In this document: in pieces, positions 36,230 through 50,807 of the stretch | How positions within the stretch are numbered: position 1 is the first letter of the stretch | Layout: the number at the start of each line of letters is the position of its first letter | NCBI RefSeq assembly: GCF_026410925.1 | Contig: NZ_CP112972.1 | Coordinates: 1,984,001-2,048,000, forward strand | Direction: 5' to 3' | DNA from: Halovenus salina | Lineage (GTDB): Archaea > Halobacteriota > Halobacteria > Halobacteriales > Haloarculaceae | Length of the DNA: 64,000 bases | Notes under the pieces: model-generated | The model's input: only the letters and a program-made list of their open reading frames with translations | What the model was told of the DNA's origin: nothing | Database searches by the model: none | Made by a program: the position numbers and the translations under genes

Positions 36230-36256
36230 TAGTATTGGGAATATAGAAAAATACTA
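36230..36256. promoter_or_regulatory. Sulfur-locus palindrome TAGTATT-N13-AATACTA
   Basis: Perfect 7-base half-sites TAGTATT (36230-36236) and AATACTA (36250-36256) separated by 13 bases, i.e. 20 bp centre to centre. It ends 26 bases before the flavoprotein ATG at 36283, where the TATA element should be. Similar sites precede other sulfur genes in this window. Confidence 0.5.
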
Positions 36257-36282
36257 TACGACTGGCACGCCAAGCTAGCAGC

Positions 36283-37626
36283 ATGAGCGAGACGCTCGTC
36301 ATCGTCGGTGGTGACGCGGCCGGACTGAGTGCCGCAAGCAAGGCAAAGCGAGCAGACCCCGACCGCGAGGTAATCGTCTTCGAGCGAGGGGAATGGGTCT
36401 CCTATGCGGCCTGTGGGATGCCCTACTACGTGAAAGGCGAAGTCGAGGAGCTCGACGACCTCGTGGCGGTCGTCCCCGAGACGTTCCGTGACCAACGCGG
36501 TATCGACCTGCGGACGGGACACGAGGTTTTCGCCGTCGACCCGGACACACAGACTGTCTCGGTCGACGGTCCCGACGAGCGCTTCGAACAACCCTACGAC
36601 GACCTGCTGATAGCCACAGGCGCAAGCGCGGTCGTGCCGCCGTTCGACGGGATGGCGCTCGACGGCGTGTTCACGATGCACGACATGGACGAGACGGCGG
36701 CTATCGACGCCTACATCGACGACAAGACGCCACAAACGGCCGCTATCGTCGGCGGCGGCTACGTCGGTGTCGAGATGGCAGAAGCGCTCACAGCCCGGGG
36801 GCTGGATGTCTCGCTCTACGAGGCGTTGCCCCGGCTGCTCCAGCCCTTTGGCGATGTCGTCGCCGAGTCGGTCGCCGACCACCTCCGCGAGCACGGTGTC
36901 GACCTCTTTCTCGACACGCCGGTCTCCGGCTTTCGGGGTGACGGCGCAGTCGAGGAGGTCGCCTTCGCTGGCGAGACGAACGCCGCAGATATCGCCATCG
37001 TCGGCGTCGGCGTCGAGCCCAACGCCACCCTCGCCGAGGGGGCGGATATCGAACTCGGGCACACAGGCGCAATCGCGACCGACGAGTACGGACAGACCAG
37101 CGCCGACCACATCTACGCCGCCGGCGACTGTGCCGAAGCCCGCCATGCCGTCACCGGCGAATCGGCCCACGTCCCGCTGGCACTGACGGCCAACCGGAGC
37201 GGTCGCGCAATCGGACAGACCGTCACCGGGACGCCAACGCCGGTCGGCGACATTGCCGGCACGGCAATCGTGAAAGCCTTCGAGACCGGTGCCGCACGGA
37301 CCGGCATCCTCGACGAGGAGCGGGCACGAGAGGCGGGCTTCGACCCGGTGTCGGCCACCATCACCGCACCGACGCGACCCCACTACTACCCCGGCGGAGC
37401 AGACCTCACCGTCACACTGGTAGCCGACCGTGAAAGCGGACGGCTCATCGGGGGGAGTCTCGTCGGCCGCGACGGACTCAAGCGTATCGACACCGTGGCG
37501 ACGGCGCTCCACGCGGAGATGACAGTTACCGAACTCCAGAACGCCGACCTGGCGTACGCGCCGCCGTTCAGCCCCGTCTGGGACCCGGTGCTGACGGCCG
37601 CGAAAGTGCTCGACGGACAGCGATGA
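36283..37626 (+). CDS. CoA-disulfide-reductase-like FAD/NAD(P) oxidoreductase
   Basis: A 447-residue flavoprotein with the FAD-binding motif VIVGGDAAGLSAASKA and the single redox Cys in WVSYAACGMPYY. It has the NAD(P) motif AAIVGGGYVGVEMAE, the FAD segment IYAAGDCAE and a C-terminal dimerisation domain. The single-Cys motif defines the CoA-disulfide reductase / NADH oxidase / persulfide reductase group. In this sulfur-gene setting, reduction of CoA-disulfide or CoA-persulfide is likely. It has no C-terminal rhodanese domain. It is overlapped by the M20 peptidase gene (ATGA). Confidence 0.87.
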   Translation: MSETLVIVGGDAAGLSAASKAKRADPDREVIVFERGEWVSYAACGMPYYVKGEVEELDDLVAVVPETFRDQRGIDLRTGHEVFAVDPDTQTVSVDGPDERFEQPYDDLLIATGASAVVPPFDGMALDGVFTMHDMDETAAIDAYIDDKTPQTAAIVGGGYVGVEMAEALTARGLDVSLYEALPRLLQPFGDVVAESVADHLREHGVDLFLDTPVSGFRGDGAVEEVAFAGETNAADIAIVGVGVEPNATLAEGADIELGHTGAIATDEYGQTSADHIYAAGDCAEARHAVTGESAHVPLALTANRSGRAIGQTVTGTPTPVGDIAGTAIVKAFETGAARTGILDEERAREAGFDPVSATITAPTRPHYYPGGADLTVTLVADRESGRLIGGSLVGRDGLKRIDTVATALHAEMTVTELQNADLAYAPPFSPVWDPVLTAAKVLDGQR

Positions 37627-38870
37627 CCGACTCCCTTGTCGCGTACGTCGACGACCACCGGGAGAACCTGATTGCGGAGACGCTCGCGTTGCTCGCTGTC
37701 GATACCGCGAACCCACCGGGCGAGACGCGCGCGCTCGTCGAACACATCGAGGATCGGCTCTCGGGACTCAGTGTCGACACCGAGCGGTTCGCGGTCGACC
37801 CCGCAAAGCCTAATCTTCTGGTGACGGTTCCCGGTGCTGGCGAGGAGATATTCCTGTACAACGGACACCTCGATACGGTGCCGTTCGACGCCGACGTCTG
37901 GGCGCACGACCCGCTCGGTGAACGGGCCGGCGACCGCATCTATGGCCGGGGCGCGACCGACATGAAAGGGGCCGTCGCGGCGATGCTGATGACAATCCGT
38001 GCCTACGCCGAAACTGGGACCGAGCCGCCGGCCGACCTGCAGTTTGCGTTCGTCAGCGACGAGGAGGTGGGCGGCGACGCCGGGCTGCCGGCGCTTTTGT
38101 CTGCCGACGTTCTCGACGCCGACGCCTGCGTTATCGGTGAACCCACCTGTCAGGAGGGTCGCCACTCCGTGACCGTCGCCGACCGGGGGAGCATCTGGCT
38201 GACGCTCGAAGCCCGTGGAGAGGGCGCTCACGGCTCCCGCCCGGTGCTCGGCGAGAACGCTATTGACCAGCTCTACGGCGCAATCCAGCGCGTGCGTGAC
38301 ATTGTCGGCAGCCGCGAGCTGCAGCTCGCGGAGTGGATGGAACCGATTCTCGACGACTCCGTCGCCTACTACAGGCCGACTGTCGGTGAGACAGCCGCCC
38401 GCGAGCTCTTCGAGTCCCCTTCGATAAATCTCGGCACCATTGAGGGCGGCGAGGCGGTCAACAGTGTCCCCGAACGCGCTCGGGCCGAACTCGACATCAG
38501 GCTCACCGCGAGCGTCGAGACATCCCGGCTCCTCGCGGAGATACGTGATTGCGTCGCCGGCTGTGAGGGAATTACTATCGCTGACGTGAGTTGGAGTACC
38601 GGAACCGCCGAACCGGTCGACAGCCCCCTCGTCGACGCCGTTACCGTGACGGTCGAGGAAGTGACCGGGATGCGGGTCTACCGCCGGAGTGCGACCGGCG
38701 GCGGTGACGCGAAATCACTTCGGAACGCCGGCATTCCGTCTGTCGAATTTGCGCTCGGGACCGACACAGTTCACGCCGTCGACGAGTACACAACTGTCGA
38801 CGCGCTCGTCGGGAACGCGACGGTGTACGCTCGGCTCCCCCATCTCTGGGCCGCGAGAACAGAGCGGTGA
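37623..38870 (+). CDS. M20-family metallopeptidase/deacylase (ArgE/DapE-like)
   Basis: A 415-residue M20 enzyme. Metal ligands lie in YNGHLDTVPFD (His), GRGATDMKGAVA (bridging Asp), FVSDEEVGGD (catalytic Glu and ligand Glu) and near the C-terminus in GTDTVHAVDEY (His). Family members remove acyl groups from amino acids or cleave dipeptides. It overlaps the CoA-disulfide-reductase-like gene by 4 bases, so the two are co-translated. A MITE-like repeat begins immediately after its stop codon. The substrate is unknown; a cysteine- or thiol-conjugate deacylase would suit the context but is speculative. Confidence 0.88.
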   Translation: MTDSLVAYVDDHRENLIAETLALLAVDTANPPGETRALVEHIEDRLSGLSVDTERFAVDPAKPNLLVTVPGAGEEIFLYNGHLDTVPFDADVWAHDPLGERAGDRIYGRGATDMKGAVAAMLMTIRAYAETGTEPPADLQFAFVSDEEVGGDAGLPALLSADVLDADACVIGEPTCQEGRHSVTVADRGSIWLTLEARGEGAHGSRPVLGENAIDQLYGAIQRVRDIVGSRELQLAEWMEPILDDSVAYYRPTVGETAARELFESPSINLGTIEGGEAVNSVPERARAELDIRLTASVETSRLLAEIRDCVAGCEGITIADVSWSTGTAEPVDSPLVDAVTVTVEEVTGMRVYRRSATGGGDAKSLRNAGIPSVEFALGTDTVHAVDEYTTVDALVGNATVYARLPHLWAARTER

Positions 38871-38987
38871 GTCATTGTGTTTGTTGCGAGTCGTTGCCGC
38901 CACGCTGTCGCTCGTTCTGTGCTTCAGAGCGTGAAACAGCCGACGGTATGAACCAGGTCTAAAAATCACCGCAATAATCACTATCAG
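38871..38987 (+). repeat. MITE-like 117-bp element, copy 2
   Basis: The right terminus GCAATAATCACTATCAG (38971-38987) matches copy 1's terminus (GCAACAATCACTATCAG) with one change. The left terminus GTCATTGTGTTTGTTGC (38871-38887) is a weaker inverted partner. It has exactly the same length as the element at 13266-13382, in opposite orientation relative to shared internal blocks. It starts one base after the M20 gene stop and supplies the stop codon (TGA in the terminal repeat) of the DUF2892 gene. Confidence 0.65.
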
Positions 38988-39199
38988 ACGTTGCAGGTGT
39001 TGACGCCGAGGACCTGATTGATGATACAGCGCTGTGTCAGCCCGGTCCCGAGCAACACGACACCGACGAGGAGTAGCGCCGCGCCGAGCGGGAGCGCCGC
39101 CGAGACGACACCGGCGACGATGAGCAGCCCGACGACTGCGAGAATCGGTCCTGCGACGAGACGAGCTGTCCGGTCGAAGCCGCCAACGTTCTGTTCCAT
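38984..39199 (-). CDS. DUF2892 inner-membrane protein (YgaP C-terminal-like)
   Basis: A 71-residue protein with MEQNVGGFDRTARLVAGPI, two hydrophobic helices (about 14-36 and 38-56) and the Cys-containing tail TQRCIINQVLGVNTC. This is the DUF2892 module found fused to rhodanese in YgaP and often encoded near sulfurtransferases. Start 39199 is about 28 bases from a TATATAAC box, consistent with a leaderless transcript. An inverted repeat lies between box and start. It is divergent from the aminotransferase gene. The last codon abuts a MITE-like repeat. Confidence 0.8.
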   Translation of the reverse strand: MEQNVGGFDRTARLVAGPILAVVGLLIVAGVVSAALPLGAALLLVGVVLLGTGLTQRCIINQVLGVNTCNV

Positions 39200-39204
39200 A
39201 TCTA

Positions 39205-39224
39205 ACTGTTGGGTGCCCAACAGT
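39205..39224. promoter_or_regulatory. Inverted repeat between TATA box and start, candidate operator
   Basis: ACTGTTGGG-TG-CCCAACAGT: two perfect 9-base arms with a 2-base spacer. On the minus strand it sits between the TATATAAC-like TATA box (about 39223-39231) and the probable leaderless start of the DUF2892 gene (39199). A bound repressor there would block transcription start. Confidence 0.5.
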
Positions 39225-39236
39225 ATATAACTTGTC

Positions 39237-39294
39237 CTATATTGTAGTTATTATAAAATACTACTGTCTATATTGTAGGATTTACACAACATTA
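39237..39294. promoter_or_regulatory. Two sulfur-locus palindromic sites between divergent genes
   Basis: The first site is CTATATT (39237-39243), 13 bases, AATACTA (39257-39263). The second begins with the repeated CTATATTGTAG at 39268-39278 (first copy 39237-39247) and has a weaker partner AACATTA at 39288-39294. The 31-base offset is three helical turns. One site may serve each of the divergent DUF2892 and aminotransferase genes. Confidence 0.45.
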
Positions 39295-39418
39295 TTACGG
39301 CGACCCAACGTAGCGCCGGTATGTGCGAAAAGACAGGCGGCGAGCAGACAGGCTGTCGGAGAGCGAACGACGGGCACAGACTGGAGACGAGCCTGGGCGG
39401 AACTGCCGAGGGGAAGCG

Positions 39419-40561
39419 ATGAGCGAGGACACCGCGCGCCCGACGACACCAATGGCGTTGCGGGACGCGATGCCGGCCTTCGAGAAGGGGCGGTACTTCA
39501 ACTTCGGCGCACACGGACCCAGCCCTCGTCACGTCGTCAAGTCGGCCGAAAACGAGACACAGGCTCACGAGTACGAGGTGCCGGTCACCGACGACCCCTA
39601 CAAGTGGGCGTTCGAGCGGTTCGACGACGCCCGGGAGCGCCTCGCGACGTTTCTCGGCGTTGAGGGCGACGAAGTGGCACTCACAGAGAGCACGACCGCC
39701 GGCATCACCGCCATCGCGGGCGCTATCGACTGGGAGCCCGGCGATGTCATCGTCCGAACGGACCTCGAACACCCGGCGGGGGTGCTCCCCTGGCAGCGCC
39801 TCGAAGCCGAGGGTGTCGAGGTACGCGTCGTCGAGACCGAAGCCGGCCGCATCGACGTTGACGCCTTCACAGAGGCAGTCGCCGACGCGAAACTCGCCTG
39901 TTTCAGCGCGCTGACGTGGACGCACGGAACGATGCTCCCTGTCGAGGAGTTGGTCGATATCGCCCACGAGGCGGGCGCGTTCACGCTCGTCGACGCCGTC
40001 CAGGTCCCCGGCCAGCGGCCGATGGACGTCACCGCCTGGGGAGCAGACGCCGTTGCGGCGGCCGGACACAAGTGGCTGCTCGGTGCCTGGGGTGCCGGCT
40101 TTCTCTACGTCGACCGCGAGGCCGCGGCAGAGCTTTCCCCCCGGGCTGTCGGCTACCGAAGCGTCGAGGACCCGACCGGGGACGACCTGGCGTTCGCCGC
40201 CGGAGCCCGGCGGTTCGAGGTCGGAACCACGAGTCTGGCACCCTACGCTGCCCTCTCTGAGGCAATCGAGACTATCGAATCCGTCGGCATCGAGGAGATA
40301 CACGACCGCAGCACGCGCCTCGCCGGCCGGCTTGCCGAGGCAATCCCGACCGACCGTCTGCTGAGTCCCGCGGACCCCGAGTCCGGGCTCGTGGCTGTCG
40401 ATGTTGACGACCCAGAGGCGACGACCGAACGCCTCGCCGAGGACGGGCTCATCGTCCGCCCGCTTCCCGAACCAGCGGCGGTCCGGGCGTCGATTCACGC
40501 GGTCAACACCGAGGAAGACGTCGACCGTCTCGCCGCCGCGCTCGAATCCGAGTGGGCGTGA
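39419..40561 (+). CDS. Class V aminotransferase, cysteine-desulfurase-like
   Basis: A 380-residue PLP enzyme. The cofactor-binding His/Asp region is TLVDAVQVPGQRPMDV, and the Schiff-base Lys is in AAGHKWLLGAWGAGFLY. It resembles the Csd/isopenicillin-N-epimerase-like branch. The mobile loop Cys of true SufS/NifS proteins is not evident in the C-terminal half. It could liberate sulfur from cysteine or act on another amino acid. The ATG at 39419 begins the conserved part; in-frame codons back to 39323 encode basic sequence. It lies downstream of the sulfur-type palindromes. Confidence 0.83.
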   Translation: MSEDTARPTTPMALRDAMPAFEKGRYFNFGAHGPSPRHVVKSAENETQAHEYEVPVTDDPYKWAFERFDDARERLATFLGVEGDEVALTESTTAGITAIAGAIDWEPGDVIVRTDLEHPAGVLPWQRLEAEGVEVRVVETEAGRIDVDAFTEAVADAKLACFSALTWTHGTMLPVEELVDIAHEAGAFTLVDAVQVPGQRPMDVTAWGADAVAAAGHKWLLGAWGAGFLYVDREAAAELSPRAVGYRSVEDPTGDDLAFAAGARRFEVGTTSLAPYAALSEAIETIESVGIEEIHDRSTRLAGRLAEAIPTDRLLSPADPESGLVAVDVDDPEATTERLAEDGLIVRPLPEPAAVRASIHAVNTEEDVDRLAAALESEWA

Positions 40562-40608
40562 CCATCCGGATATAAACTCACTTCTGGCACCCGTCGCTCA
40601 CTCACCGC

Positions 40609-41265
40609 ATGGACGCTGTTCTGTTCGACTTGGACGGAACACTGGTACAGTACCGACGCTCGCCCGGTGAGGTGCTCGCACGGAGCTACGAGCGCGTCGG
40701 CGTCGACCCGGTGTTTCCCGTCGAGGCGTACTACGACCGCTACGACGAGTTTGCCGAGCGAACCTCCTCGATGAGCGAACTCCGGCGGGAGTGTTTCGCC
40801 GCGCTTGCGGCCGAGCGGGGCCGGCCGCCGTCGGTCGGCCGGGAGATTGCAGCGGCGTTCGACCGCGAGCGTGACCAGTCGAACGCCGAGACACTCCCTG
40901 GTGTCCGGCCGACCCTCGATACCCTCGCCGAGCGATACGCCCTGGGCGTCGTCACGAATGGTGTCCGGGACGCCCAGCTGACGAAACTCGACGCGACGGG
41001 ACTCGACCGGTATTTCGAGACTGTCGTCGTCGCCGGTGACGACTGCGAGCCGAAGCCGGCGGCTGCCCCCTTCGAGATGGCACTGGCAGAGCTGGCGGCC
41101 GAACCGACTAGCGCTGTCCACGTCGGTGACACGCCCGAGACCGACGTTGCCGGCGGAGCCGCGCTCGGCCTCGACACGGTGCTGGTCGCCTCGGACTCCC
41201 AGCCCGCTGATGCGACCTACGTTATCTCCTCGCCGGAGGCGTTGCGCTCGCCGCCCTGGGAGTAG
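40609..41265 (+). CDS. HAD-superfamily hydrolase
   Basis: A 218-residue phosphatase-fold protein with nucleophile motif FDLDGTLV at residues 6-13 and a helical cap (about 20-90). It also has motif II VVTNGVRD, the Lys in EPKPAAAPF and acidic motif IV VHVGDTPETDVAG. This is typical of haloarchaeal HAD-IA phosphatases (phosphoglycolate phosphatase-like). GATATAAAC at 40568-40576 is a probable TATA box. It follows the aminotransferase by 47 bases. The substrate is unknown. Confidence 0.88.
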   Translation: MDAVLFDLDGTLVQYRRSPGEVLARSYERVGVDPVFPVEAYYDRYDEFAERTSSMSELRRECFAALAAERGRPPSVGREIAAAFDRERDQSNAETLPGVRPTLDTLAERYALGVVTNGVRDAQLTKLDATGLDRYFETVVVAGDDCEPKPAAAPFEMALAELAAEPTSAVHVGDTPETDVAGGAALGLDTVLVASDSQPADATYVISSPEALRSPPWE

Positions 41266-41356
41266 CGACACAGCGTGTCGCGAACACAACCTAACAATCA
41301 CTCGCTGTACACTGTTGTGTGGGGGTCGATTACGGAGATTCGAGGCGGACGCCTCG
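41265..41356. other. Series of three inverted repeats between convergent genes
   Basis: GCGACAC-AGC-GTGTCGC (41265-41281) starts at the HAD stop codon. ACACAAC (41284-41290) pairs with GTTGTGT (41314-41320). CGAGGCG-GA-CGCCTCG spans 41341-41356. All arms are 7-base perfect complements. Between convergent genes this may be termination or an RNA element. No clear U-tract follows. The rest of the 198-base gap shows nothing. Confidence 0.4.
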
Positions 41357-41463
41357 CGGTTCGGGGCGGCAAACCGTCAGTAAAACAAGTACCGTTCTGA
41401 CCTGCAACTGTCGGGCTGTCTCCCTATCCGAGCCAGCCTCCAACGAATCGTGCGCTCTCGTGG

Positions 41464-42828
41464 CTACTGATCGACCAAATCGTCGACCGCACGACCGATA
41501 TCCGTTACTTGGCGCTGTTGGCTCGACGTTGTGTCGCTCAATGCGACGAGTTGCTGTTCGAGCGACGTGAGCTCCTCAACGGCGGCATCGACTGTTGCAG
41601 TCACCTCCTCGGAACTCGACGCGTGTGCGTCGGTTGCTTTGGCGACTTCCTGTGCGCTTGTCGCCGTTTCGCTGATTGCGTCACCAATCTCTTGGAGTGC
41701 AGTCACGGTGTTGTCGACGGCTTCGATTGCGTCCGCGATTTCTGTGGTTGTCTTGGTGAGTTCCTCTTCTGTTCGTTTGGTCATCTCGATCATCTCCGTG
41801 ACCATCGCTTCGATTTCACCGGCCTGCTGTTGGGAGTCGCCAGCCAGGTTCTTGATCTCGTCGGCGACAACAGCGAACCCGTCACCCGCCTCACCGGCGC
41901 GGGCAGCTTCGATTGAGGCATTCAACGCGAGCATATTCGTCTGCTCTGCGATGCCGTCAATCACATCGATGATTTCGTTCATCTCGTCGGCCTGTGTGGT
42001 AAGCGCGTTGAGCGTGTCGGTCACGCCGTCAGCCTGCTCTCTGACGGCCTCCATCCGGTCGATAGCGGCAGATGCTGTCTGTTCACCGTCATCGGCACGG
42101 CTGTTTGCCTGCTGTGCGGCACTGCTTACAGCCTCTGCACTCGAGGCAATCTCTTCGATTGTCGCAGACTGGTTCGAGAGTTCGCCTGCGGCTTGCTCCA
42201 TGCGGTCGGTCTGTTCTTCGGCAAACGACTCAATTTCATCAGTGGTAGAGACAATCTCGTCGATAGCCTCGGAGAGGTCGTCCAGCTCCGAGCGAACGGT
42301 GCCGCTGACTTTATCCTGGAGTCGCTCGAGCTCCCGCTGACGGTGGACGTGTTCGGAGACATCCGGTGTCACCTCGAACGCCCCGACAACAGAGCCCTCC
42401 GGGCCGCGAAGCGGGACACCGTAGGTCTGGAATATCTTATCGCTCGTCGGCACTTCTCGGACCCCGTCTTCCTTGATTGCCTCGCCTCTCCGAGCGACCG
42501 TCTCGGCGAGTGTCTCGTCTTCGTCTTCTGTTCCGATTACATCGTAGGCATTCTTGCCCAGCACTTCTCCCCGAGAGGTGTCGAGGTCGCCAGCCAGCGT
42601 CTCGTTCCAGTGAGTAAGCGTCCCATCGTCGGTCGTTACAAACACTCCCTCGGGGAACTCGCTGACGAGCTGATTGAACATCTCCTTCCAGAAGTCCCGT
42701 TCCTGGCGGAGGCGTTCGTCGCCTGCTTCGCTAATATCGGTCTGTGACGTGTATGTTTCCCAAAGATATTCGGTTGCGTGAGACTCTTTGCCCGCTTGTG
42801 AGTCATCAGCCCCCTCTGTGAAGCTCAT
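41464..42828 (-). CDS. Soluble PAS-containing methyl-accepting chemotaxis transducer
   Basis: A 454-residue paralogue of the transducer at 3252-4541. A short acidic N-terminus is followed by PAS (about 50-165; [20 protein letters not shown]), a coiled coil and the signalling hairpin ([20 protein letters not shown], then [14 protein letters not shown]). No membrane helix is present, so it senses a cytosolic signal and reports to CheA. Codons are somewhat more AT-rich than in surrounding genes. An AT-rich direct repeat lies upstream at 42851-42883. It is inserted between sulfur genes; a link to sulfur or redox taxis is conjecture. Confidence 0.93.
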
Positions 42829-42850
42829 GACAGTGCTTTGACGCCACTGA

Positions 42851-42883
42851 ATTCAATGTTTGGATAGGATTCAATATTTGATA
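42851..42883 (-). promoter_or_regulatory. AT-rich imperfect direct repeat before the transducer gene
   Basis: ATTCAATGTTTGGATA (42851-42866) is followed by ATTCAATATTTGATA (42869-42883). It covers the region 23-55 bases upstream of the transducer ATG (42828), where TATA and BRE should be. It could be a tandem regulator site. The rest of the gap to 43101 shows only a weak stem (CCGTC/GACGG, 42920-42935). Confidence 0.35.
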
Positions 42884-43101
42884 ACAAGCGGCTGGTCTCA
42901 GTGACGACCCGCCTGAAGACCGTCCGTTAAGACGGGCGAGTGAGTCTCTCCATCTCTCGTTTCATCTACTCCGTCGTTGGCTTCCGGTTCCAACTCTGTT
43001 GCTCATGTGGGACGGTATGACCAGACGCGTATCCTCTCCTGGCGCGATACCTGCTGGATATCAAATAGACGCCTGTGGGCCGCTATGATATACTCCGGCA
43101 A

Positions 43102-43674
43102 TCACACGAGCAACTGGATATCGGCGTCGGCCATATCCTGCAGCGCGGTCGCGGCCCCGACGCCGGTCGTGACACCATCGTAGAAGTCGTCTTCGTCGTA
43201 GTCCATCAGTTCGATGGTCATCTGGCAGGCCTGAAACTCCACGCCCATCTCCAGGGAGGTGTCGACGAGTTCCTCGATTGTCGCCGTATCGTTGTCGTCG
43301 ATTCGCCGCTCCATCATCTTGGTCGTAACACGGTCCATGCCGGGAATCGCGCCGACAACGTTCGGGACGGGCATGTTGGGGTTCCCGACGGAGCTGAGTT
43401 TGAGGTTTTTCGAGCGCTCCTCGTGGAGGATCTCCAGCCCCCAGAACGTGTGAAAGACCGTCACCTCGTAGCCAAACGCCGCCGCGGTGCTCGCGAGGAT
43501 GAGCGGCGGATACGCCATGTCGAGGGTTCCCTTCGTCGCGATGATGGACATCTTTTTGGCGTCGTCCTCCTCGGTCGCCTCCGCGAGCGATTCCTCCAGC
43601 TCCTCGACGCGTGCGGCGAGTTCCGCACGAGAGGGCGTCTCCTCCGCCGGTGCGTCGGGTGTCTCCGTGCTCAT
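43102..43674 (-). CDS. DsrE-like sulfur-trafficking protein
   Basis: A 190-residue protein. An N-terminal coiled coil (about 10-38) precedes a DsrE/F-fold domain (KKMSIIATKGTLDMAYPPLI, VTVFHTFWGLEIL). The conserved Cys in VEFQACQMTIELMDYDED probably carries a persulfide. DsrE-type proteins accept sulfane sulfur from rhodanese and TusA. Start 43674 follows the TusA stop by 2 bases; a GTG at 43680 would overlap it. Co-transcription with tusA, and nearness to the rhodanese gene, support sulfur transfer. Confidence 0.85.
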   Translation of the reverse strand: MSTETPDAPAEETPSRAELAARVEELEESLAEATEEDDAKKMSIIATKGTLDMAYPPLILASTAAAFGYEVTVFHTFWGLEILHEERSKNLKLSSVGNPNMPVPNVVGAIPGMDRVTTKMMERRIDDNDTATIEELVDTSLEMGVEFQACQMTIELMDYDEDDFYDGVTTGVGAATALQDMADADIQLLV

Positions 43675-43676
43675 CG

Positions 43677-43922
43677 TCACTCTGTCTTGCGGACGTAGTG
43701 TCTGTACACGTCGCTGTCCTCGGCCTGGTCGAGGAGTTCGACCCCGCTGGTTCCGGCCGCCCAGCCGTCGATGTCGCTCATGCTGCCGGAGTCAGTCGCG
43801 AGCACTTCAAGAACCTCTCCCTCACCGAGGTCGTCGATGGCTCCTTTCGTTTTCACGACCGGCATGGGACACGATGCACCTTTCACGTCGAGCGTCTCCG
43901 TAACGTTGAATTCCGTACTCAT
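43677..43922 (-). CDS. tusA: TusA-family sulfur carrier
   Basis: An 81-residue TusA/SirA-like protein. The active Cys lies in LDVKGASCPMPVVKTK (CPxP motif, residue about 18). The rest follows the two-layer alpha/beta fold. It carries persulfide sulfur between donors such as rhodanese or cysteine desulfurase and acceptors such as DsrE. It is first in a two-gene operon with the DsrE-like gene. It lies just downstream of a palindromic sulfur-locus site and is divergent from the rhodanese-MBL gene. Confidence 0.92.
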   Translation of the reverse strand: MSTEFNVTETLDVKGASCPMPVVKTKGAIDDLGEGEVLEVLATDSGSMSDIDGWAAGTSGVELLDQAEDSDVYRHYVRKTE

Positions 43923-43942
43923 TGGTTATCTGCTCCGTCCTT

Positions 43943-43969
43943 CTATATTGGAGCTACTGCACAATACTA
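43943..43969 (-). promoter_or_regulatory. Sulfur-locus palindrome before tusA
   Basis: CTATATT (43943-43949), 13 bases, AATACTA (43963-43969). Read on the tusA strand this is TAGTATTGTGCAGTAG..., ending 20 bases before the tusA ATG. Half-site and spacing match the sites at 36230 and 39237. Confidence 0.5.
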
Positions 43970-44087
43970 ACTCGGTGGGTAAAAGAATGTTGGTCCTTGT
44001 ACTTGCTGTGAACAACAGGAACCGAAGATTGCGGGATTTATGACATAGAACGAGCCTAGTAGACTCCTTAGACGAAAATTGTGATAT

Positions 44088-44114
44088 TTGTATTGTGTAG
44101 TTAGTGAATTACTA
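44088..44114 (+). promoter_or_regulatory. Sulfur-locus palindrome before the rhodanese-MBL gene
   Basis: TTGTATT (44088-44094), 13 bases, ATTACTA (44108-44114); one or two changes from TAGTATT-N13-AATACTA. It ends 45 bases before the ATG at 44160. ATGCAAACTC follows, similar to the sequence after the 49179 site. Confidence 0.45.
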
Positions 44115-44159
44115 TGCAAACTCTTTTGTGTATCTACCCGGTAGAGAGGGGTGTACACG

Positions 44160-45353
44160 ATGAACCCAGAAGATTTCCCGGCTCCGGCTGTCGACGTCGA
44201 GAGCGTCGCTCCTGAGACACTGAAAGACCGTATCGACGCAGGTGAGCAGGTCACGCTTCTCGACGCGCGGATGGAGTCCGAATACGACGAGTGGCATATC
44301 GACGGACCGACGGTCGACTCGCTCAACGTTCCGTACTTTCATTTCCTCGACGACGAGGTCGACGACGAGATACTCGCGGAGATTCCAGCCGACCGCGAGC
44401 TGACTGTTCTCTGTGCGAAAGGCGGGGCTAGCGAGTACGTCGCCGGCACACTCGCCGAACTCGGCTACGACGTGAACCACCTCGACGAGGGGATGAACGG
44501 TTGGGCGAGCATCTACGAGGCTGTCGAAGTGACCGAGTATGACGGTGCTGGGACGCTGTTGCAGTACCAGCGCCCCTCCTCTGGCTGTCTCGGCTACCTC
44601 CTCTACGACGGCGGCGAAGCCGCGATCATCGACCCGCTTCGGGCCTTTACCGACCGGTATCTCGCCGACGCCGCGGAACTCGGCGTCGACCTGACCTACG
44701 CCATCGACACGCACGTCCACGCCGACCACATCTCGGGCGTGCGCGACCTCGATGCCGAGGGCGTCGAGGGCGTCATTCCCGAGGCCGCTGTCGACCGTGG
44801 CATCACCTACGCCGACGACCTGACCACCGCCGCCGACGGCGACATCTTCACCGTCGGCGACGCGACCATCGAAACCGTCGCCACGCCCGGCCACACCACC
44901 GGGATGACCTCCTATCTCGTCGACGACAGCTTCCTGGCGACCGGAGACGGCCTGTTCGTCGAGAGTGTCGCTCGCCCGGACCTCGAAGAGGGCGACGAGG
45001 GCGCACCCGATGCCGCGCGCATGCTCTATGAGTCACTCCAGGAGCGCGTGCTGACGCTGCCCGAGGAGACAATCATCGGCGGCGCACACGCGAGTGACGC
45101 CGCAGTCCCCGCCGAGGACGGCACCTACACCGCACCACTCGGTGACCTCGTCGCGGAGATGGACGCGCTGACGATGGACGAAGACGAGTTCGTCGAGCTG
45201 ATTCTCGCGGATATGCCGCCCCGGCCGGCCAACTACGAGGAGATTATCGCGACGAACCTCGGCCAGAACAGTGTCGACGACGAGGAAGCGTTCACACTCG
45301 AACTCGGGCCGAACAACTGCGCTGCGAGCCAGGAGTCGCTCGCGGGTGACTGA
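44160..45353 (+). CDS. Rhodanese-metallo-beta-lactamase fusion, persulfide-dioxygenase-like
   Basis: A 397-residue fusion. An N-terminal rhodanese domain (about 15-125) carries catalytic Cys in LTVLCAKGGASEYVAG. A C-terminal ETHE1-like MBL domain (about 135-370) has the metal motif THVHADH, then TPGHTTGM and ATGDGLFVES. ETHE1 enzymes oxidise glutathione- or CoA-persulfide to sulfite using Fe(II) and O2, and rhodanese handles the sulfane sulfur. The sulfite can leave through the TauE exporter downstream. ATG 44160 is preferred over an upstream GTG (44151). It heads an operon with the YeeE genes. Confidence 0.9.
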   Translation: MNPEDFPAPAVDVESVAPETLKDRIDAGEQVTLLDARMESEYDEWHIDGPTVDSLNVPYFHFLDDEVDDEILAEIPADRELTVLCAKGGASEYVAGTLAELGYDVNHLDEGMNGWASIYEAVEVTEYDGAGTLLQYQRPSSGCLGYLLYDGGEAAIIDPLRAFTDRYLADAAELGVDLTYAIDTHVHADHISGVRDLDAEGVEGVIPEAAVDRGITYADDLTTAADGDIFTVGDATIETVATPGHTTGMTSYLVDDSFLATGDGLFVESVARPDLEEGDEGAPDAARMLYESLQERVLTLPEETIIGGAHASDAAVPAEDGTYTAPLGDLVAEMDALTMDEDEFVELILADMPPRPANYEEIIATNLGQNSVDDEEAFTLELGPNNCAASQESLAGD

Positions 45354-45361
45354 GACGAGCG

Positions 45362-45916
45362 ATGCTCGACCCAGTACCGCTGGCGGTTGTCGGTGAGCTG
45401 TTTCCAAACGGCGTCAGTCGCTACGCCGTCGGCGGCTTCCTCGTCGGCCTCGGAACGGTGCTCATCTACGTCGGGACGGGTATCCCGGCCGGCGCGAGTA
45501 CGTTCCTCGAATCGACGCTGTCGTACGTCTCCGGCCAGTCACGATTCCGGCAGTACGTCGACTCCCGTGACTGGCGAGTCGTGTTCACGGCCGGTATCAT
45601 CCTCGGGGGCCTGCTGTTTGCGGCCACCGTTCAGTCTGGCCTCCTCTCGTCGGGGCTCTACGAGGCCGGCTCGACCGGCGAACTCTACGATATCGGCGGC
45701 GTGACCCTGTGGCTGACCGAGGTCCAGCCGTGGCGGCTGTTCGTAGGCGGTCTCTTCGTTGGAATTGGTACCCGAATCGGGAAAGGCTGTACGTCGGGCC
45801 ACGGCGTCTGTGGCGTCGGCTCGGCGTCGAAAACGTCCATCGTGGGCGTCGTCACCTTTCTGCTGGTTGCTATTGCGACCGCCCAGATTGTCGCCGCCAC
45901 GGGGGTGACGCCGTGA
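45362..45916 (+). CDS. YeeE/YedE-family sulfur transporter, half 1
   Basis: A 184-residue membrane protein of about five helices with the conserved Cys motif GKGCTSGHGVCGVGSAS near residue 140. YeeE/YedE proteins take up thiosulfate or related sulfane sulfur by handing it along conserved Cys residues. Here the transporter is split into two genes. Starts 8 bases after the rhodanese-MBL stop and overlaps the next gene (TGATG), showing coupling. A TusA partner is encoded divergently. Confidence 0.88.
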   Translation: MLDPVPLAVVGELFPNGVSRYAVGGFLVGLGTVLIYVGTGIPAGASTFLESTLSYVSGQSRFRQYVDSRDWRVVFTAGIILGGLLFAATVQSGLLSSGLYEAGSTGELYDIGGVTLWLTEVQPWRLFVGGLFVGIGTRIGKGCTSGHGVCGVGSASKTSIVGVVTFLLVAIATAQIVAATGVTP

Positions 45917-46371
45917 TGGCGGACCGCCATCCGCTGTTCAAACCCCTGGTGTTCGTCGGGGGTATCGTCTTCGGCTTCGGACTTGGATTCAGTCATATGG
46001 CCCGTCCCGAGGTGGTCCTGAACTTCCTCACGTTCGAGGATTTCGGACTGTTGTTCGTCATGTTCGGTGCGGCCATCGTCTCGGGTATCGCCTTTGCGGT
46101 CATGCCACGGATTCGCGACACCGCACCGCTGTCGGGCAACCGCTACGAGCGCCGGCTGAAGTCATTCGACCGGAACGTGCTCGTCGGCGGCGCTATCTTC
46201 GGTGTCGGCTGGGGGCTCTCGGGCATCTGTCCCGGCGCGGCTTACGCCAGTCTCGGCACCGGCAACGTCACGATCCTCTGGGCGCTCGCGGGGATGTTCG
46301 TCGGCGCCTACGCACAGGGATACGTGCGGAGTCGCGCGTCTGCTGGCGTCACAGCGGCGAGTGCTGACTGA
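45916..46371 (+). CDS. YeeE/YedE-family sulfur transporter, half 2
   Basis: A 151-residue membrane protein with about four helices and the second conserved Cys motif, GWGLSGICPGAAYASLGTGN. It complements half 1; together they match a full-length YeeE/YedE. ATG 45916 overlaps the previous stop by one base. The periplasmic and cytosolic Cys arrangement suggests sulfur relay into the cytosol toward TusA/rhodanese. Confidence 0.87.
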   Translation: MADRHPLFKPLVFVGGIVFGFGLGFSHMARPEVVLNFLTFEDFGLLFVMFGAAIVSGIAFAVMPRIRDTAPLSGNRYERRLKSFDRNVLVGGAIFGVGWGLSGICPGAAYASLGTGNVTILWALAGMFVGAYAQGYVRSRASAGVTAASAD

Positions 46372-46383
46372 GCCTGTCTCATC

Positions 46384-47565
46384 ATGGAACTTTCAGTAGT
46401 TGCTGTCTTTCTCGTCGCCGGTGTCGCGAGCCTGTTCATGTCGTGGGTTATCGGAGCCGGCTCCAGCGGCGCGACGCCGTTTGCCCCGGCGGTCGGTGCG
46501 AACGCGATTTCGACGATGCGGGCGGCGTTTGTCGTCGGCATCTTTGGTTTTGCCGGCGCGGTGATACAGGGTGCGAACGTCTCTGAGGCGGTCGGTCGGG
46601 GCCTCGTCGGCGGCGGTAGCCTTCCCGCGACCGGCGTCATCGTCGTCCTGTTCATCGGTGCCGGGCTGATGGCCGTCGGCATCAAGACAGGGTATCCGAT
46701 TGCCACTGCCTTCACCGTCACCGGCGCTGTCGTCGGTGTCGGCCTCGCACTCGGTGGGACGCCCGTCTGGTCGAAGTACCTCCAGGTGGGCGCGGTCTGG
46801 CTGCTGACGCCGGTCGTCGGCGGCGGGCTCGCGTACGCCATCGCGAGCGTCCTCCCCCGGAACGACGTGCCCGAACGGTACAGCGTCGCGGCCCTTGCTG
46901 GTCTCGTCGGGGCGGTGCTGGCGAACGTCGAGTTCGCCTATCTCGGTCCGGGCGAGCGTGCGGGGACCGCCGCTGGCTTCGTGGGGCGAACGCTCGGCGC
47001 CGAGACGGCGACGACAGCCGGCTCCGTCTCGGTCCTCGTCGGGCTCGGGGTCGCCGGGCTCGTCTGGTGGGATGTCGGACGGCAGACGACCAACGGACTC
47101 CGGCGGGTGCTCCTTGCGCTTGGCTCGCTTGTTGCCTTCTCGGCGGGTGGGAGCCAGGTTGGCCTCGCTGTTGGCCCCCTGCTCCCGTTGCTCGACGGCG
47201 TCGAGATGGTTTCGGTGACCGCAGTCCTCGTCGGCGGCGGTGCTGGCATCCTCGTCGGCTCCTGGACCGGCGCGCCGCGGATGATAAAATCGCTGGCACA
47301 GGACTACTCCTCGCTCGGCCCGCGACGCTCTATCGCTGCGCTTGTTCCTTCGTTTCTCATCGCACAGGCCGCCGTGTTTCTCGGCGTCCCGGTCTCGTTC
47401 AACGAGATTATCGTCAGCGCAATCATCGGAAGCGGCGCGGCGGTCGGCGGTGGTGACGCGGTGAGCCCGCGGAAAATCCTGGTCACCGTCGGTGCCTGGG
47501 CTGGCTCGCTCGTGTTCGCGCTTGCCGCTGGCTACGCTGTGGTCCTCGCGCTGCCGATGCAGTGA
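46384..47565 (+). CDS. PiT/CysP-family anion permease
   Basis: A 393-residue transporter of the inorganic phosphate transporter (PiT) superfamily, about 10-11 helices in two repeats. Repeat motifs are GANAISTMRAAFVVGIFGF and VSFNEIIVSAIIGSGAAVGG. It lies directly after the YeeE pair, so uptake of sulfate or another sulfur oxyanion, as for CysP of Bacillus, is more likely than phosphate. That assignment rests on context. It has no cytoplasmic regulatory domain. Confidence 0.82.
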   Translation: MELSVVAVFLVAGVASLFMSWVIGAGSSGATPFAPAVGANAISTMRAAFVVGIFGFAGAVIQGANVSEAVGRGLVGGGSLPATGVIVVLFIGAGLMAVGIKTGYPIATAFTVTGAVVGVGLALGGTPVWSKYLQVGAVWLLTPVVGGGLAYAIASVLPRNDVPERYSVAALAGLVGAVLANVEFAYLGPGERAGTAAGFVGRTLGAETATTAGSVSVLVGLGVAGLVWWDVGRQTTNGLRRVLLALGSLVAFSAGGSQVGLAVGPLLPLLDGVEMVSVTAVLVGGGAGILVGSWTGAPRMIKSLAQDYSSLGPRRSIAALVPSFLIAQAAVFLGVPVSFNEIIVSAIIGSGAAVGGGDAVSPRKILVTVGAWAGSLVFALAAGYAVVLALPMQ

Positions 47566-47596
47566 GCCACAGGTCCCGACCGGCTGTCTCACGCAG

Positions 47597-47622
47597 CAGT
47601 ATTTCAGAACTAAACAATACTA
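47597..47622. promoter_or_regulatory. Sulfur-locus palindrome variant (12-base spacer)
   Basis: CAGTATT (47597-47603), 12 bases, AATACTA (47616-47622). It lies in the 329-base gap 47566-47894, 30 bases after the permease stop. One base shorter in spacing than the others, so possibly a decayed or weaker site. Apart from this site and the next, the gap shows no gene I can support. Confidence 0.35.
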
Positions 47623-47787
47623 CTGTCGAGAGACCGTCACAGATACACCTGCGTCGCTCGCTGTTTCTGTACTGGTTGCTGTGCGCGCCACTCTCTGAGA
47701 GGATTCTGGGGTAAGCAACACTTGTGCCGGTATATCCCAATAACTTATGACGCTATTCGTCTCTCCTACCGATGTGATTTATAGAAA

Positions 47788-47814
47788 TAGTATTGTGCTA
47801 TCGGTCCAAAACTG
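47788..47814 (+). promoter_or_regulatory. Sulfur-locus site before the microprotein-TauE pair
   Basis: TAGTATTGTGC at 47788-47798 reproduces the tusA-strand half-site exactly. The distal arm AAAACTG (47808-47814) keeps 5 of 7 positions after a 13-base spacer. CTGTTAATTAC just downstream may include the TATA box for the gene at 47895. Confidence 0.45.
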
Positions 47815-47894
47815 TTAATTACACCCGTCGATTACTCTCTACTGAAGCAGTGCATGAAACAATCACAACTACACAACACTGGCGGTGAGACACG

Positions 47895-48044
47895 ATGGTA
47901 ACGCTTGGTAGCTATCCACCGGCCATGGAGGCGGCCCTCCTCATCGGTGCAGTCCTCGTGGAGGCGCTTGTTCTCTACGTCGGCTACGGCGCGATGGAAC
48001 AGTTCGTTGGACCACAACTGCTCGACCGCATCACACAGACATAG
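47895..48044 (+). CDS. Membrane microprotein upstream of TauE (49 residues)
   Basis: ATG at 47895 preceded by a GGTGAG ribosome-binding-like site. It encodes MVTLGSYPPAMEAALLIGAV, one hydrophobic helix (about 11-33), then a polar tail ending LDRITQT. Its stop abuts the TauE ATG with no gap, so the two are translationally linked. It may be a small subunit or assembly factor of the exporter. Too short to classify otherwise. Confidence 0.7.
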   Translation: MVTLGSYPPAMEAALLIGAVLVEALVLYVGYGAMEQFVGPQLLDRITQT

Positions 48045-49073
48045 ATGGATATCTTCGGACTCAGTCTGGCGTTACTCGTCCTGTTTGTCGGGTTTGGGCT
48101 GCTCATCGGCATCCTGTTTGGCTTCTTCGGGATGGGTGGCTCGTTTCTCGTCACGCCGGCGTTGCTGGTGATGGGGTACGACTCTCGGGTCGCCGTCGGG
48201 AGTGGGCTCGCGTTCGTGTTCGGTACGTCGGTCATCGCGACGCTGAAACATCGCGACCTCGGGCAGGTCGACTACAAGCTCGGGGTGTTGATGATTGCGG
48301 GGACGACCGCGGGCATCGAGGTCGGTAAGGAAGTGGTGCTCCACCTCGAAGAGCTGGGACTTGCAGGCAGCATCATCAGCGTCACCTACGTCGTGTTGCT
48401 GGGAGGTATCGGCGTCTTTGTGACCTACGAGTCGGTGAAGGGCAGCGACGGCGGCCCCGACCATGAGGCGGCTGACGAACCGGCCGATGCAGAGGATATC
48501 CCCGACATCGCGAAGACGATTCAGTCATACCGGGTACCGCCGATGATAGCTCTCAGGGGCGGCGTCAGGGTGTCGCTGTGGATGATTCTCGGCGTTGCCT
48601 TCGCCACGGGACTGTTGTCAGGATTCCTGGGTGTCGGGGGCGGCTTCATCCGGATGCCCGCACTGTTCTATCTCATCGGCGTGCCGGTCCCGGTCGCCGT
48701 CGGGACCGACCTCTTCGAGATTGTCTTCTCGGGCGGTATCGGGAGTTTCACCTACGCGCTCGACGGCGGTGTCAATCTGCGCATCGTGTTGCCGTTGCTG
48801 GCCGGGAGCGCGCTCGGCGCGCGCATCGGGTCGGCCGCGACGAGCATCGTCGACGAGGACGAAATCAAGGTCTACTTCGGCGTGATGCTCCTTGGCGGCG
48901 CTGTCGCTGTTGCCGTCCGCGAAATCGGGAATGTCTACGGTATCGGCGTGTTCGATGTCGTCAGCCTGGTGTTGATTCTCGGCTCGGCGCTGCTGGTCAG
49001 CGGTGCTGTCGTCTACAGCACGGTGAGCGAGCTCCGAGACCGCGAGACGGTCACAGCAACGGCCGCCGACTGA
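48045..49073 (+). CDS. TauE/SafE-family sulfite/sulfonate exporter
   Basis: A 342-residue membrane protein with about eight helices in two repeats, each with the family motif: GFFGMGGSFLVTPALLVMGY and GFLGVGGGFIRMPALFYLIG. A hydrophilic loop (about 130-165) separates the repeats. TauE/SafE proteins export sulfite, sulfoacetate or other organosulfur anions. It follows a persulfide dioxygenase in the same region, so removal of toxic sulfite is the likely role. Confidence 0.9.
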   Translation: MDIFGLSLALLVLFVGFGLLIGILFGFFGMGGSFLVTPALLVMGYDSRVAVGSGLAFVFGTSVIATLKHRDLGQVDYKLGVLMIAGTTAGIEVGKEVVLHLEELGLAGSIISVTYVVLLGGIGVFVTYESVKGSDGGPDHEAADEPADAEDIPDIAKTIQSYRVPPMIALRGGVRVSLWMILGVAFATGLLSGFLGVGGGFIRMPALFYLIGVPVPVAVGTDLFEIVFSGGIGSFTYALDGGVNLRIVLPLLAGSALGARIGSAATSIVDEDEIKVYFGVMLLGGAVAVAVREIGNVYGIGVFDVVSLVLILGSALLVSGAVVYSTVSELRDRETVTATAAD

Positions 49074-49178
49074 TTGAGACGGTCGTTCCGTGACCGGCTC
49101 CCGAAGCTCGGTGTGTCGAGTGGGTCTCTGTTCGACCTGCGGCCTCCTTCACACCAGAGTATCCCAGGGTTCTACAGG

Positions 49179-49197
49179 ATTGTGCAATCTATGCAAA
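49179..49197 (+). promoter_or_regulatory. Shared upstream element before the HTH regulator
   Basis: ATTGTGCAATCTATGCAAA, containing the small palindrome GATTG-TG-CAATC (49178-49189). The same 19-base string with two changes precedes thioredoxin (49701-49719). TTCTTTTAAC just downstream is a probable TATA element, about 35 bases before the ATG. Confidence 0.5.
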
Positions 49198-49236
49198 TTC
49201 TTTTAACAGCGTGGCCCCTATCTCCTGATACGACAG

Positions 49237-49641
49237 ATGCCAGATTCGATGTCTGAACAGCTACGACAGGATATGCAGTGTGAGGGGCTGCTCGAGTGTT
49301 TCCACGGGCTCAAACAGCTCGACAAGGATGTCTTCCGGGTGCTCGTCCAGAGCGAGGAGCCACAGACCGTCGACGAGATTGCCGAGCGCGTCGACAGAGA
49401 GCGCTCGACTGCCTACCGGGCGGTCCAGCGGCTCATCCAGGCCGGCTTCATCCAGAAAGAGCAGGTTAACTACGACCAGGGCGGCTACTACCACGTCTAC
49501 CGGCCGACCGACCCCTCCAAGATCGCCGACAACATGCAACGACTCCTCAACGACTGGTACGCGAAGATGGGCCAGCTCATCCAGGAGTTCGAGACGAAAT
49601 ACGAGGAGGACACATCCTCGATGCAGTCGGTCGAAGGGTAG
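49237..49641 (+). CDS. TrmB-like winged-HTH regulator
   Basis: A 134-residue protein. The winged HTH (about 25-95) reads LDKDVFRVLVQSEEPQTVDE with recognition helix ERSTAYRAVQRLIQAGF. A C-terminal coiled-coil dimerisation helix follows (LNDWYAKMGQLIQEFETKYE). Its place at the end of the sulfur region, and a promoter element shared with thioredoxin, suggest it regulates these genes and itself, perhaps through Cys17 redox state. Start could be 49237 or 49249. Confidence 0.82.
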   Translation: MPDSMSEQLRQDMQCEGLLECFHGLKQLDKDVFRVLVQSEEPQTVDEIAERVDRERSTAYRAVQRLIQAGFIQKEQVNYDQGGYYHVYRPTDPSKIADNMQRLLNDWYAKMGQLIQEFETKYEEDTSSMQSVEG

Positions 49642-49700
49642 TACACCTGCTGTGTGTGGGTTTCGCCCCCGGCGCTGCTGAAAATCAGACGTTCTCTTGT

Positions 49701-49719
49701 ATTGTGCAATCTCTACAAA
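49701..49719 (+). promoter_or_regulatory. Shared upstream element before thioredoxin
   Basis: ATTGTGCAATCTCTACAAA, two changes from the element at 49179. TTGTATT (49697-49703) also reproduces the rhodanese-MBL half-site. CCCTTAACTA follows as likely TATA, about 30 bases before the thioredoxin ATG. Confidence 0.5.
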
Positions 49720-49753
49720 ACCCTTAACTACGACCAGAGCCAACGAACAGGTG

Positions 49754-50568: not shown

Positions 50569-50663
50569 ACCTACCAGTACAACGACCAATCAAAGGTATT
50601 CTTTGAAGTGACCTACAGACAACCACCAGTAGACTTTTAAGCGTGGAGGAGCAAGGAGTAGAC

Positions 50664-50807
50664 GTGACGAAGCAACTCAAGGTATCCGATTCCGTGTACG
50701 ACGACCTTGACGAACTCAAGGACGAGGAGGGCCACACGAGTTTCGACAGCGTACTCCGAACGCTCCTCCTTCACTACCGTCACGTCCAACCCAACGACCA
50801 AGAATGA
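50664..50807 (+). CDS. Small RHH-like protein overlapping tnpB
   Basis: A GTG-started 47-residue frame (TKQLKVSDSVYDDLDELKDE, then GHTSFDSVLRTLLLHYRHV). It has the beta-strand then two-helix pattern of ribbon-helix-helix DNA-binding proteins of the VapB/CopG kind. AAGGAG lies 5 bases upstream. The stop overlaps the tnpB ATG (ATGA), so the two are co-translated. It could control transposase expression. An in-frame GTG at 50643 is an alternative start. Confidence 0.7.
   Translation: MTKQLKVSDSVYDDLDELKDEEGHTSFDSVLRTLLLHYRHVQPNDQE

Follow-up and report, generated by a model that had tools for sequence, protein, structure and literature searches.

Genes and operator sites of the sulfur cluster

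The window, a stretch of 64,000 nucleotides from Halovenus salina (contig NZ_CP112972.1, positions 1,984,001 to 2,048,000), carries between 36 and 50 kb a group of genes whose protein families point to sulfur import, trafficking, oxidation and export. Several of their promoters share a palindromic element, TAGTATT-N13-AATACTA, which is treated here as a candidate operator, and a small gene of the TrmB family lies among them. The genes of the cluster and their positions in the window are as follows.

36283–37626 (+): coenzyme A (CoA)-disulfide-reductase-like flavin adenine dinucleotide (FAD) oxidoreductase (TIGR03385, E 2e-126, below the curated cut-off; Pyr_redox_2)
38984–39199 (−): small membrane protein with a YgaP-like transmembrane (TM) domain (PF11127; query trimmed to 39187)
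39419–40561 (+): class V aminotransferase, SufS- or cysteine-desulfurase-like (profile matches below the NCBIfam cut-offs)
43102–43680 (−): DsrE2-like sulfur carrier (NF047629, 164 bits, cut-off 210)
43677–43922 (−): TusA-like sulfurtransferase (PF01206, E 5.8e-20)
44160–45353 (+): protein with rhodanese and metallo-beta-lactamase (MBL) folds, a probable persulfide dioxygenase (PF00753, PF00581)
45362–45916 (+): YeeE/YedE half-transporter A (PF04143)
45916–46371 (+): YeeE/YedE half-transporter B (DUF6691; PF20398, PF04143)
46384–47565 (+): PHO4-family, CysP-like permease (PF01384; NF053884, E 1.9e-18, below cut-off)
47895–48044 (+): DUF7512 protein of 49 residues (PF24352)
48045–49073 (+): TauE/SafE exporter (PF01925, E 5.6e-42)
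49237–49641 (+): TrmB-like regulator with a single winged helix-turn-helix (wHTH) domain and cysteines C15 and C21, the proposed binder of the operator (PF01978)
49754–50104 (+): thioredoxin (TIGR01068, above cut-off)

The MBL-rhodanese protein also gives a weak match to the Blh model (37.6 bits, cut-off 625; query from 44163, one codon in). The operator and operator-like sites that accompany these genes are listed below, with a strand where one is assigned.

36230–36256: perfectly palindromic operator, whose end lies 26 bp upstream of the CoA-disulfide-reductase-like gene
39237–39263: operator flanked by the YgaP-TM gene (−) and the SufS-like gene (+), a pattern match
39268–39294: second, weaker operator-like site adjoining the 39237 site (matrix score 18.8)
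43943–43969 (−): operator of tusA-dsrE2, covering the probable start site some 20 bp past the TATA element (downstream)
44088–44114 (+): operator of the MBL-rhodanese gene, directly upstream of GCAAAC, which resembles a transcription factor B recognition element (BRE)
47597–47622: possible distal second operator with a 12-base spacer, the weakest of the six sites first listed
47788–47814 (+): operator of DUF7512-tauE; its right arm merges with the BRE-like CCAAAAC, which TTAA follows
49179–49197 (+): operator of the TrmB-like gene, reduced to the core TTG-N11-CA (ATTGTGCAATCTATGCAAA)
49697–49723 (+): operator of thioredoxin, its right arm fused to a BRE-like element

All six sites reported in a first-pass annotation of the sequence are present in the window. 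When up to three mismatches are allowed, TAGTATT-N13-AATACTA has exactly five matches, at 36230 (0 mismatches), 39237 (3), 43943 (3), 44088 (2) and 47788 (2), against a mean of 0.08 and a maximum of 1 in 100 shuffles of the window. A scan of the whole window at this threshold bears out the earlier statement that comparable sites are confined to 36–50 kb. The extended string TAGTATTGTGC or TTGTATTGTG does stand, as had been noted, before tusA, DUF7512-TauE, the MBL-rhodanese gene and thioredoxin. A weight-matrix scan had been suggested as a check; with a matrix built from the promoter sites of relatives and a threshold of 11, the sites at 36230, 39237, 43943, 44088 and 47788 and the thioredoxin site at 49697 score 27–32. 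The matrix adds the sites at 39268 (18.8) and in the TrmB promoter at 49175 (14.8), and its sole match outside 36–50 kb, at 8854, lies near the threshold (11.5).

The sixth site, 47597–47622, matches the arms at 13 of 14 letters across a 12-base spacer, and with this different spacer it has no match to the matrix built from relatives. A counterpart in Halovenus aranensis was seen with the first version of the matrix; the final version does not return 47597. In relatives, the final matrix places a site 250–400 bp before DUF7512 in 7 of 26 loci (L050, L055, L064, L067, L098, L100 and L105). The site in the window lies 191 bp upstream of the proximal TauE operator, and looping, another promoter or a relic are conceivable.

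Conservation of the operator in haloarchaeal relatives

A scan of named genomes yielded 80 loci around the TrmB-like gene, of which the one with the nearest relative of the protein, from Halovenus aranensis (L046; 97% over 127 residues), was left out of the conservation counts, leaving 79. TusA, DsrE2, the MBL-rhodanese protein and both YeeE halves accompany the TrmB-like gene in 41 of the 80 loci at identities of at least 45%, and Halobacterium salinarum (L068) is among the carriers of the cluster. Across the 79 loci (1.43 Mb), 163 matches to the pattern stand against two for its reversed control. Within 250 bp upstream of 14 gene families of the window lie 117 of these 163 sites, or 129 when distant paralogues are included.

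By promoter class, the pattern is found within 180 bp upstream, at up to three mismatches, for 31 of 42 MBL-rhodanese genes, 15 of 42 TusA genes, 22 of 33 DUF7512 genes and 29 of 50 thioredoxin genes, with shuffle means of 0.30–0.55. When spacers of 5–20 bases are compared, a spacer of 13 gives the highest count at up to four mismatches in all four classes. The proximal DUF7512 site is found by weight matrix in all 26 loci in which PHO4 is followed by DUF7512 (L046 included). In 75 of 81 relatives, the promoter of the TrmB-like gene retains TTG-N11-CA, the inner core, where shuffling gives a mean of 6.8. Conservation of the sites indicates that they are functional.

In relatives, operator-like sites also precede further genes. 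A universal-stress-protein gene (PF00582; for example L052:7503–8369, −) has such a site within 300 bp upstream in all 23 loci that carry it; where inspected, it sits between PHO4 and DUF7512 and partly shares the site with the divergent DUF7512 gene. The window has no universal-stress-protein gene between PHO4 and DUF7512. Genes for a DUF302 protein (PF03625; L054:12367–12642, −) and a DsrE-like protein (L118:14238–14660, +) also lie behind operator-like sites. In L078, a second, diverged copy of the module occupies 11859–14875 of the same locus (TrmB 60%, MBL 54%, TusA 73%); the motif is a poor match to the MBL, TusA and TrmB promoters of this copy, a natural test of regulator–operator co-evolution.

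Promoter geometry

The fixed element across the aligned promoters is TATTG-N11-CAA with an outer TAG and CTA, and its most symmetric form is TAGTATTG-N11-CAATACTA. All classes share the core TTG-N11-CA, or a variant of it in the MBL class. The consensus sequences, on which BRE and TATA elements were called by eye and distances counted, are as follows.

MBL-rhodanese: TAGTATTGt...GaA.TACTATGCAAAc.CTTttg
DUF7512-TauE: ATATAGTATTGTacagTaatCCCAAAACCGTTAta
Thioredoxin: tAGTATTGTata.t.t.ccCAaAACtcTTAA
TrmB: ATTGTgcaatct.taCAcAAgtCTTTTA
TusA: ACA.tcTTTTA...ggTATTGTGcgaTAgcTCCAATACA

In the DUF7512-TauE, thioredoxin and TrmB classes, the TTG of the core precedes the TATA element by 22 bp, and the right arm is fused to the BRE. 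In the MBL class TTG precedes it by 31 bp, almost one turn of the helix more, which sets the right arm about 9 bp further upstream. In the TusA class, TTG follows the TATA element by 20 bp and so lies on the probable start site, and a TATA-like element and the operator keep this fixed register in 31 of 42 TusA promoters of relatives.

Linkage, co-occurrence and distant sites

Among 195 genomes sampled from the order, the TrmB-like gene was called present in 176 (E <= 1e-10), three of these (G048, G050 and G185) by weak best matches (E 4e-12 to 6e-11). A strict 20-letter form of the operator occurs in 133 of the 195 genomes and its reversed control in 5. The strict motif is thus carried by 133 of 176 genomes with the gene and by none of the 19 without it (Fisher 4e-11). 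Among the 122 motif matches listed for genomes with a listed TrmB position, 61 lie within 3 kb of the TrmB gene and 73 within 10 kb. Of 30 operator-bearing loci retrieved through this search, 25 have thioredoxin or DUF7512 directly downstream (BLAST); L142 has thioredoxin, L158 and L159 have a TusA-like gene followed by one resembling sulfide:quinone oxidoreductase (SQR), and L133 and L154 have no assignment. By linkage and co-occurrence, the TrmB-like protein appears the likeliest binder of the operator.

The first-pass annotation had raised the question of whether the motif occurs at random frequency genome-wide, and the answer depends on the pattern. With up to three mismatches, the whole 3.77-Mb genome holds 46 matches against 31 for the reversed control, so that most matches at this loose threshold are noise. 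The stricter 16-letter palindrome, TAGTATTG-N11-CAATACTA, gives 9 matches against 1. Five of the 46 loose matches fall inside 11.6 kb (binomial P 3e-7); because pattern and stretch were both chosen from the same window, the relatives are the fair test. A pattern with a 9-base spacer, part of the evidence for the DUF7512-tauE and thioredoxin sites, has 2 matches and none in the control.

Four of the nine strict matches lie in the cluster. A fifth, at contig position 145332 (L007) and some 1.9 Mb away from the cluster on the contig, was picked up through the pattern with no other cue; it ends 37 bp before a TusA-like gene that is followed by an SQR-like gene. The SQR-like protein matches structure 8dhk (E 1.2e-39) and scores below the cut-off of the NCBIfam SQR model. 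The same arrangement of operator, tusA and SQR recurs in L158 and L159, and the SQR sites have the opposite orientation relative to their genes. Four further strict matches (L002, L005, L127 and L128), with three mismatches each, have no evident sulfur gene in the lists of open reading frames inspected and are probably due to chance.

Taken over the 79 loci and the 195-genome search, the earlier grouping of sulfur functions under one operator is upheld for trafficking (TusA and DsrE2), for oxidation (the MBL-rhodanese protein, with SQR added from outside the annotation's view) and for export (TauE), and extends to thioredoxin. Its inclusion of import stands by inference only: the YeeE/YedE and PHO4/CysP-like genes would be controlled as close same-strand followers of the MBL gene.

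The TrmB-like protein

The TrmB-like protein has 134 residues and one PF01978 wHTH domain (residues 19–93, E 6.6e-18). The profile search listed no C-terminal sugar-sensing domain; TrmB was the best match, and no model named ArsR appeared among the 13 families listed. Both conserved cysteines lie in the stretch CEGLLEC, with C15 kept in 84 and C21 in all of 85 aligned proteins. The predicted recognition helix is, like the operator, nearly invariant among relatives.

The AlphaFold monomer model (mean pLDDT 80.8, with residues 1–3 and 5–14 below 50) predicts an N-terminal helix at residues 6–21, of low confidence to residue 14, followed by the wHTH and a long C-terminal helix at residues 93–132. 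The nearest solved folds are PDB 3R0A (MM_1094) and AbfR2 (6CMV). C21 aligns with Cys17 of 3R0A, which in turn was aligned by the authors of the OxsR study with OxsR C24, a residue of the oxidant-dependent intersubunit disulfide that OxsR requires to bind DNA (PMC9426492). C21 is thus, transitively via 3R0A, the equivalent of OxsR C24.

Relation to known regulators

Thiol-based TrmB regulators (PMC9426492) and bacterial persulfide regulons (PMC5823870) are both known. The nearest characterised system is OxsR of Haloferax volcanii (HVO_2970; TrmB family, arCOG02242), which is, like the protein of the window, a small single-wHTH TrmB protein with the aligned N-terminal cysteine, and which likewise has sites upstream or downstream of BRE/TATA elements and thiol-relay targets (PMC9426492). 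OxsR activates from upstream sites and represses from downstream ones (PMC9426492). It differs in its CG-rich motif, CGGnCGnGCG, which is nearly absent here, although the motif is also missing from some OxsR-bound sites (PMC9426492). As the shared element of this cluster, CGGnCGnGCG was rejected at 3 of 481 upstream regions. The window protein further differs from OxsR in its second conserved cysteine, C15, and in targets that are mainly sulfur genes.

An uncharacterised OxsR paralogue, HVO_1360, is 28% identical to OxsR (PMC9426492). It is a small arCOG02242 TrmB protein whose cysteines, C15 and C21, are numbered as in the window protein (PMC9426492). By these cysteine positions, the window protein very likely belongs to the HVO_1360 subfamily, and orthology is likely. 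In the open-licence literature searched, HVO_1360 is named only in PMC9426492.

BigR is an ArsR-type regulator. Through two cysteines, it is inactivated by H2S and polysulfides (PMC5823870). The BigR operon of Xylella and Agrobacterium resembles the present system in its two-cysteine sensor and in placing the Blh sulfurtransferase-dioxygenase and a TauE-related sulfite transporter under one regulator (PMC5823870). The BigR-type gene set is matched here by family and operator only, through the rhodanese/ETHE1-like MBL protein and TauE at two promoters. The present system is archaeal, with a TrmB rather than an ArsR protein, several promoters with operators at different positions, and TusA/DsrE2, a PHO4-like permease, thioredoxin and a separate SQR in addition.

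SurR of the Thermococcales, an ArsR-family protein, is archaeal and responds to sulfur through cysteines, as proposed here (PMC9426492); its protein family, targets and organisms are other than those of the window protein. The winged-helix regulators Sta1, Lrs14 and AbfR2 are similar in fold and sequence (NF053606, 73.6 bits; 6CMV), but the window protein falls below the Sta1 cut-off (NF053606, 80) and 6CMV lacks both cysteines within the part that aligns. The open-licence literature searched yielded no account of a sulfur regulon with this operator, target set and regulator subfamily.

In one relative (L118:18302–20392), a CoA-disulfide-reductase-like gene (−) faces a DUF1684 gene (+, PF07920) with operator-like sites between them. 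Both families are among the OxsR targets identified by chromatin immunoprecipitation in H. volcanii (PMC9426492), a hint that the two regulators share targets.

A proposed sulfane-sulfur switch and its alternatives

It is proposed that the element is the operator of a sulfur regulon, bound by the linked single-domain TrmB-family protein, a relative of OxsR, which would grip the TATTG-N11-CAA core as a dimer. Sulfane sulfur, as persulfide or polysulfide, would modify C15 and C21 in the N-terminal helix and so change DNA binding, and operator position would set the outcome. Sites upstream of or fused to the BRE (in the putative MBL-rhodanese-YeeE-PHO4 and DUF7512-TauE operons, thioredoxin and the TrmB gene) would drive or gate induction, and those over the start region (tusA-dsrE2 and probably tusA-SQR) would block transcription. 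SQR and the MBL-rhodanese protein would oxidise sulfide and persulfide to sulfite, TusA and DsrE2 would pass sulfur along, and TauE would export the sulfite. A sulfane-sulfur switch is favoured because the conserved targets belong to families that generate, transfer and oxidise sulfane sulfur and that export sulfite, tasks which the BigR operon also covers. Taken jointly, these elements form a reading that we hold to be somewhat better than evenly supported. As to sign, the BRE-fused sites would be compatible with either a repressor or an activator; by analogy with OxsR, a dual rule of activation and repression is the more likely for the TrmB-like protein.

Several observations weigh against this proposal. 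No family could be assigned to 34 of the 163 sites in relatives, several of which lie by position directly before MBL paralogues (for example in L091, L111 and L114), and the promoter of the TrmB-like gene itself lacks the outer arms in relatives (0 of 81 match the palindrome at up to three mismatches). The loci span many genera and are related by descent, so the counts are not independent events. Arms 20 bp apart are wide for one small winged-helix dimer, and two dimers are possible. Furthermore, sulfane sulfur and general oxidants are not distinguished by these data, and the binder and the regulation are proposed from sequence.

The co-occurrence also has weak points. If G048, G050 and G185 are counted as lacking the gene, the split becomes 132 of 173 against 1 of 22, and 43 of the 176 gene-bearing genomes have no strict match. 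The tusA of the window has no match in any of the 19 TrmB-less genomes (E <= 1e-5, in a set with no positive control), several of which are incomplete, and in 10 of the 19 the only MBL matches are 39–64% identical, the best full-length one at 52%. With tusA unmatched and MBL proteins distant, the co-occurrence is that of the whole module, which seems to have been gained or lost together, and does not point to one binder; it was not accepted as proof of the binder.

An alternative, which we consider rather unlikely, keeps the operator and the TrmB-like binder and takes general thiol oxidation (hypochlorite or disulfide stress) as the signal, perhaps through heterodimers with OxsR, the sulfur genes being one branch of a redox response. 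OxsR, which shares its arCOG with HVO_1360, is a thiol switch that responds to hypochlorite, and its authors proposed that it pairs with HVO_1360, a protein with C15 and C21, to form a heterodimer (PMC9426492). Thioredoxin and the CoA-disulfide-reductase-like gene carry the operator here, and both classes are among the OxsR targets (PMC9426492, Table 1). The conserved targets, however, are sulfurtransferases, SQR, the probable persulfide dioxygenase and TauE rather than general oxidative-stress genes, and the near absence of OxsR's CG-rich motif from upstream regions also speaks against this alternative.

It is a little less probable again that another transcription factor binds a real operator and that the TrmB-like gene is one member of the regulon. 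The TrmB promoter carries the motif core alone, 49 of the 122 listed sites lie more than 10 kb from a listed TrmB gene, and the choice of binder follows from sequence. Against this, none of the 14 window genes followed encodes a regulator except the TrmB-like gene, although no search was made for further regulators close to the sites; the TrmB-like gene is linked to and co-occurs with the operator, and its predicted recognition helix is, like the operator, nearly invariant.

That the element is a promoter signature for a particular combination of transcription factor B (TFB) and TATA-binding protein (TBP), with the CAA arm as BRE, is very improbable. The fused right arms at the TauE, thioredoxin and TrmB promoters would fit such a signature, but the left arm stands at a long distance upstream from the BRE. 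MBL promoters have a BRE-like element of their own, which the entire site precedes, and TusA promoters carry the site past the TATA element, on its downstream side; on the geometry of these two classes, a BRE/TFB signature alone was rejected. Coincidental matches in A+T-rich DNA between genes, for which only the noisy genome-wide count of the loose pattern speaks, can practically be dismissed on the window shuffles, the promoter and site counts in relatives (163 against 2), the 133 against 5 of 195 genomes and the fixed promoter geometry.

The finding supplies a candidate regulator, a list of targets and an operator whose bases are defined, and so makes an archaeal sulfur-sensing circuit directly testable. 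Most sampled genomes of the order carry the regulator, and the presence of the cluster in Halobacterium salinarum offers a tractable organism for tests of sulfur sensing. A bolder form, to which we give somewhat less than an even chance, is that the two-cysteine TrmB-family protein serves as the haloarchaeal master sensor of sulfane sulfur, unrelated to the bacterial ArsR and CsoR sensors and performing the same tasks, with one operator in three promoter positions (BRE-fused, upstream and over the start) giving activation or repression in response to a single signal. If true, an archaeal TrmB protein would have converged on the work of bacterial ArsR and CsoR proteins, and these promoters would offer natural material on how operator position relative to BRE and TATA sets activation or repression in archaea.

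Other features of the window

A gene for a PAS-domain methyl-accepting chemotaxis transducer (41464–42828, −) lies inside the sulfur region and has no operator-like site at up to three mismatches. Beside thioredoxin stands an IS200/IS605-type pair, formed by an IS200-like Y1 transposase (50170–50589, −; PF01797) and a partner (50804–52081, +; PF07282) that we take to be a TnpB-like protein. Upstream of the cluster, two very similar ABC-transporter permease genes lie in tandem (34005–34991 and 35102–36175), with PF00528 in both.

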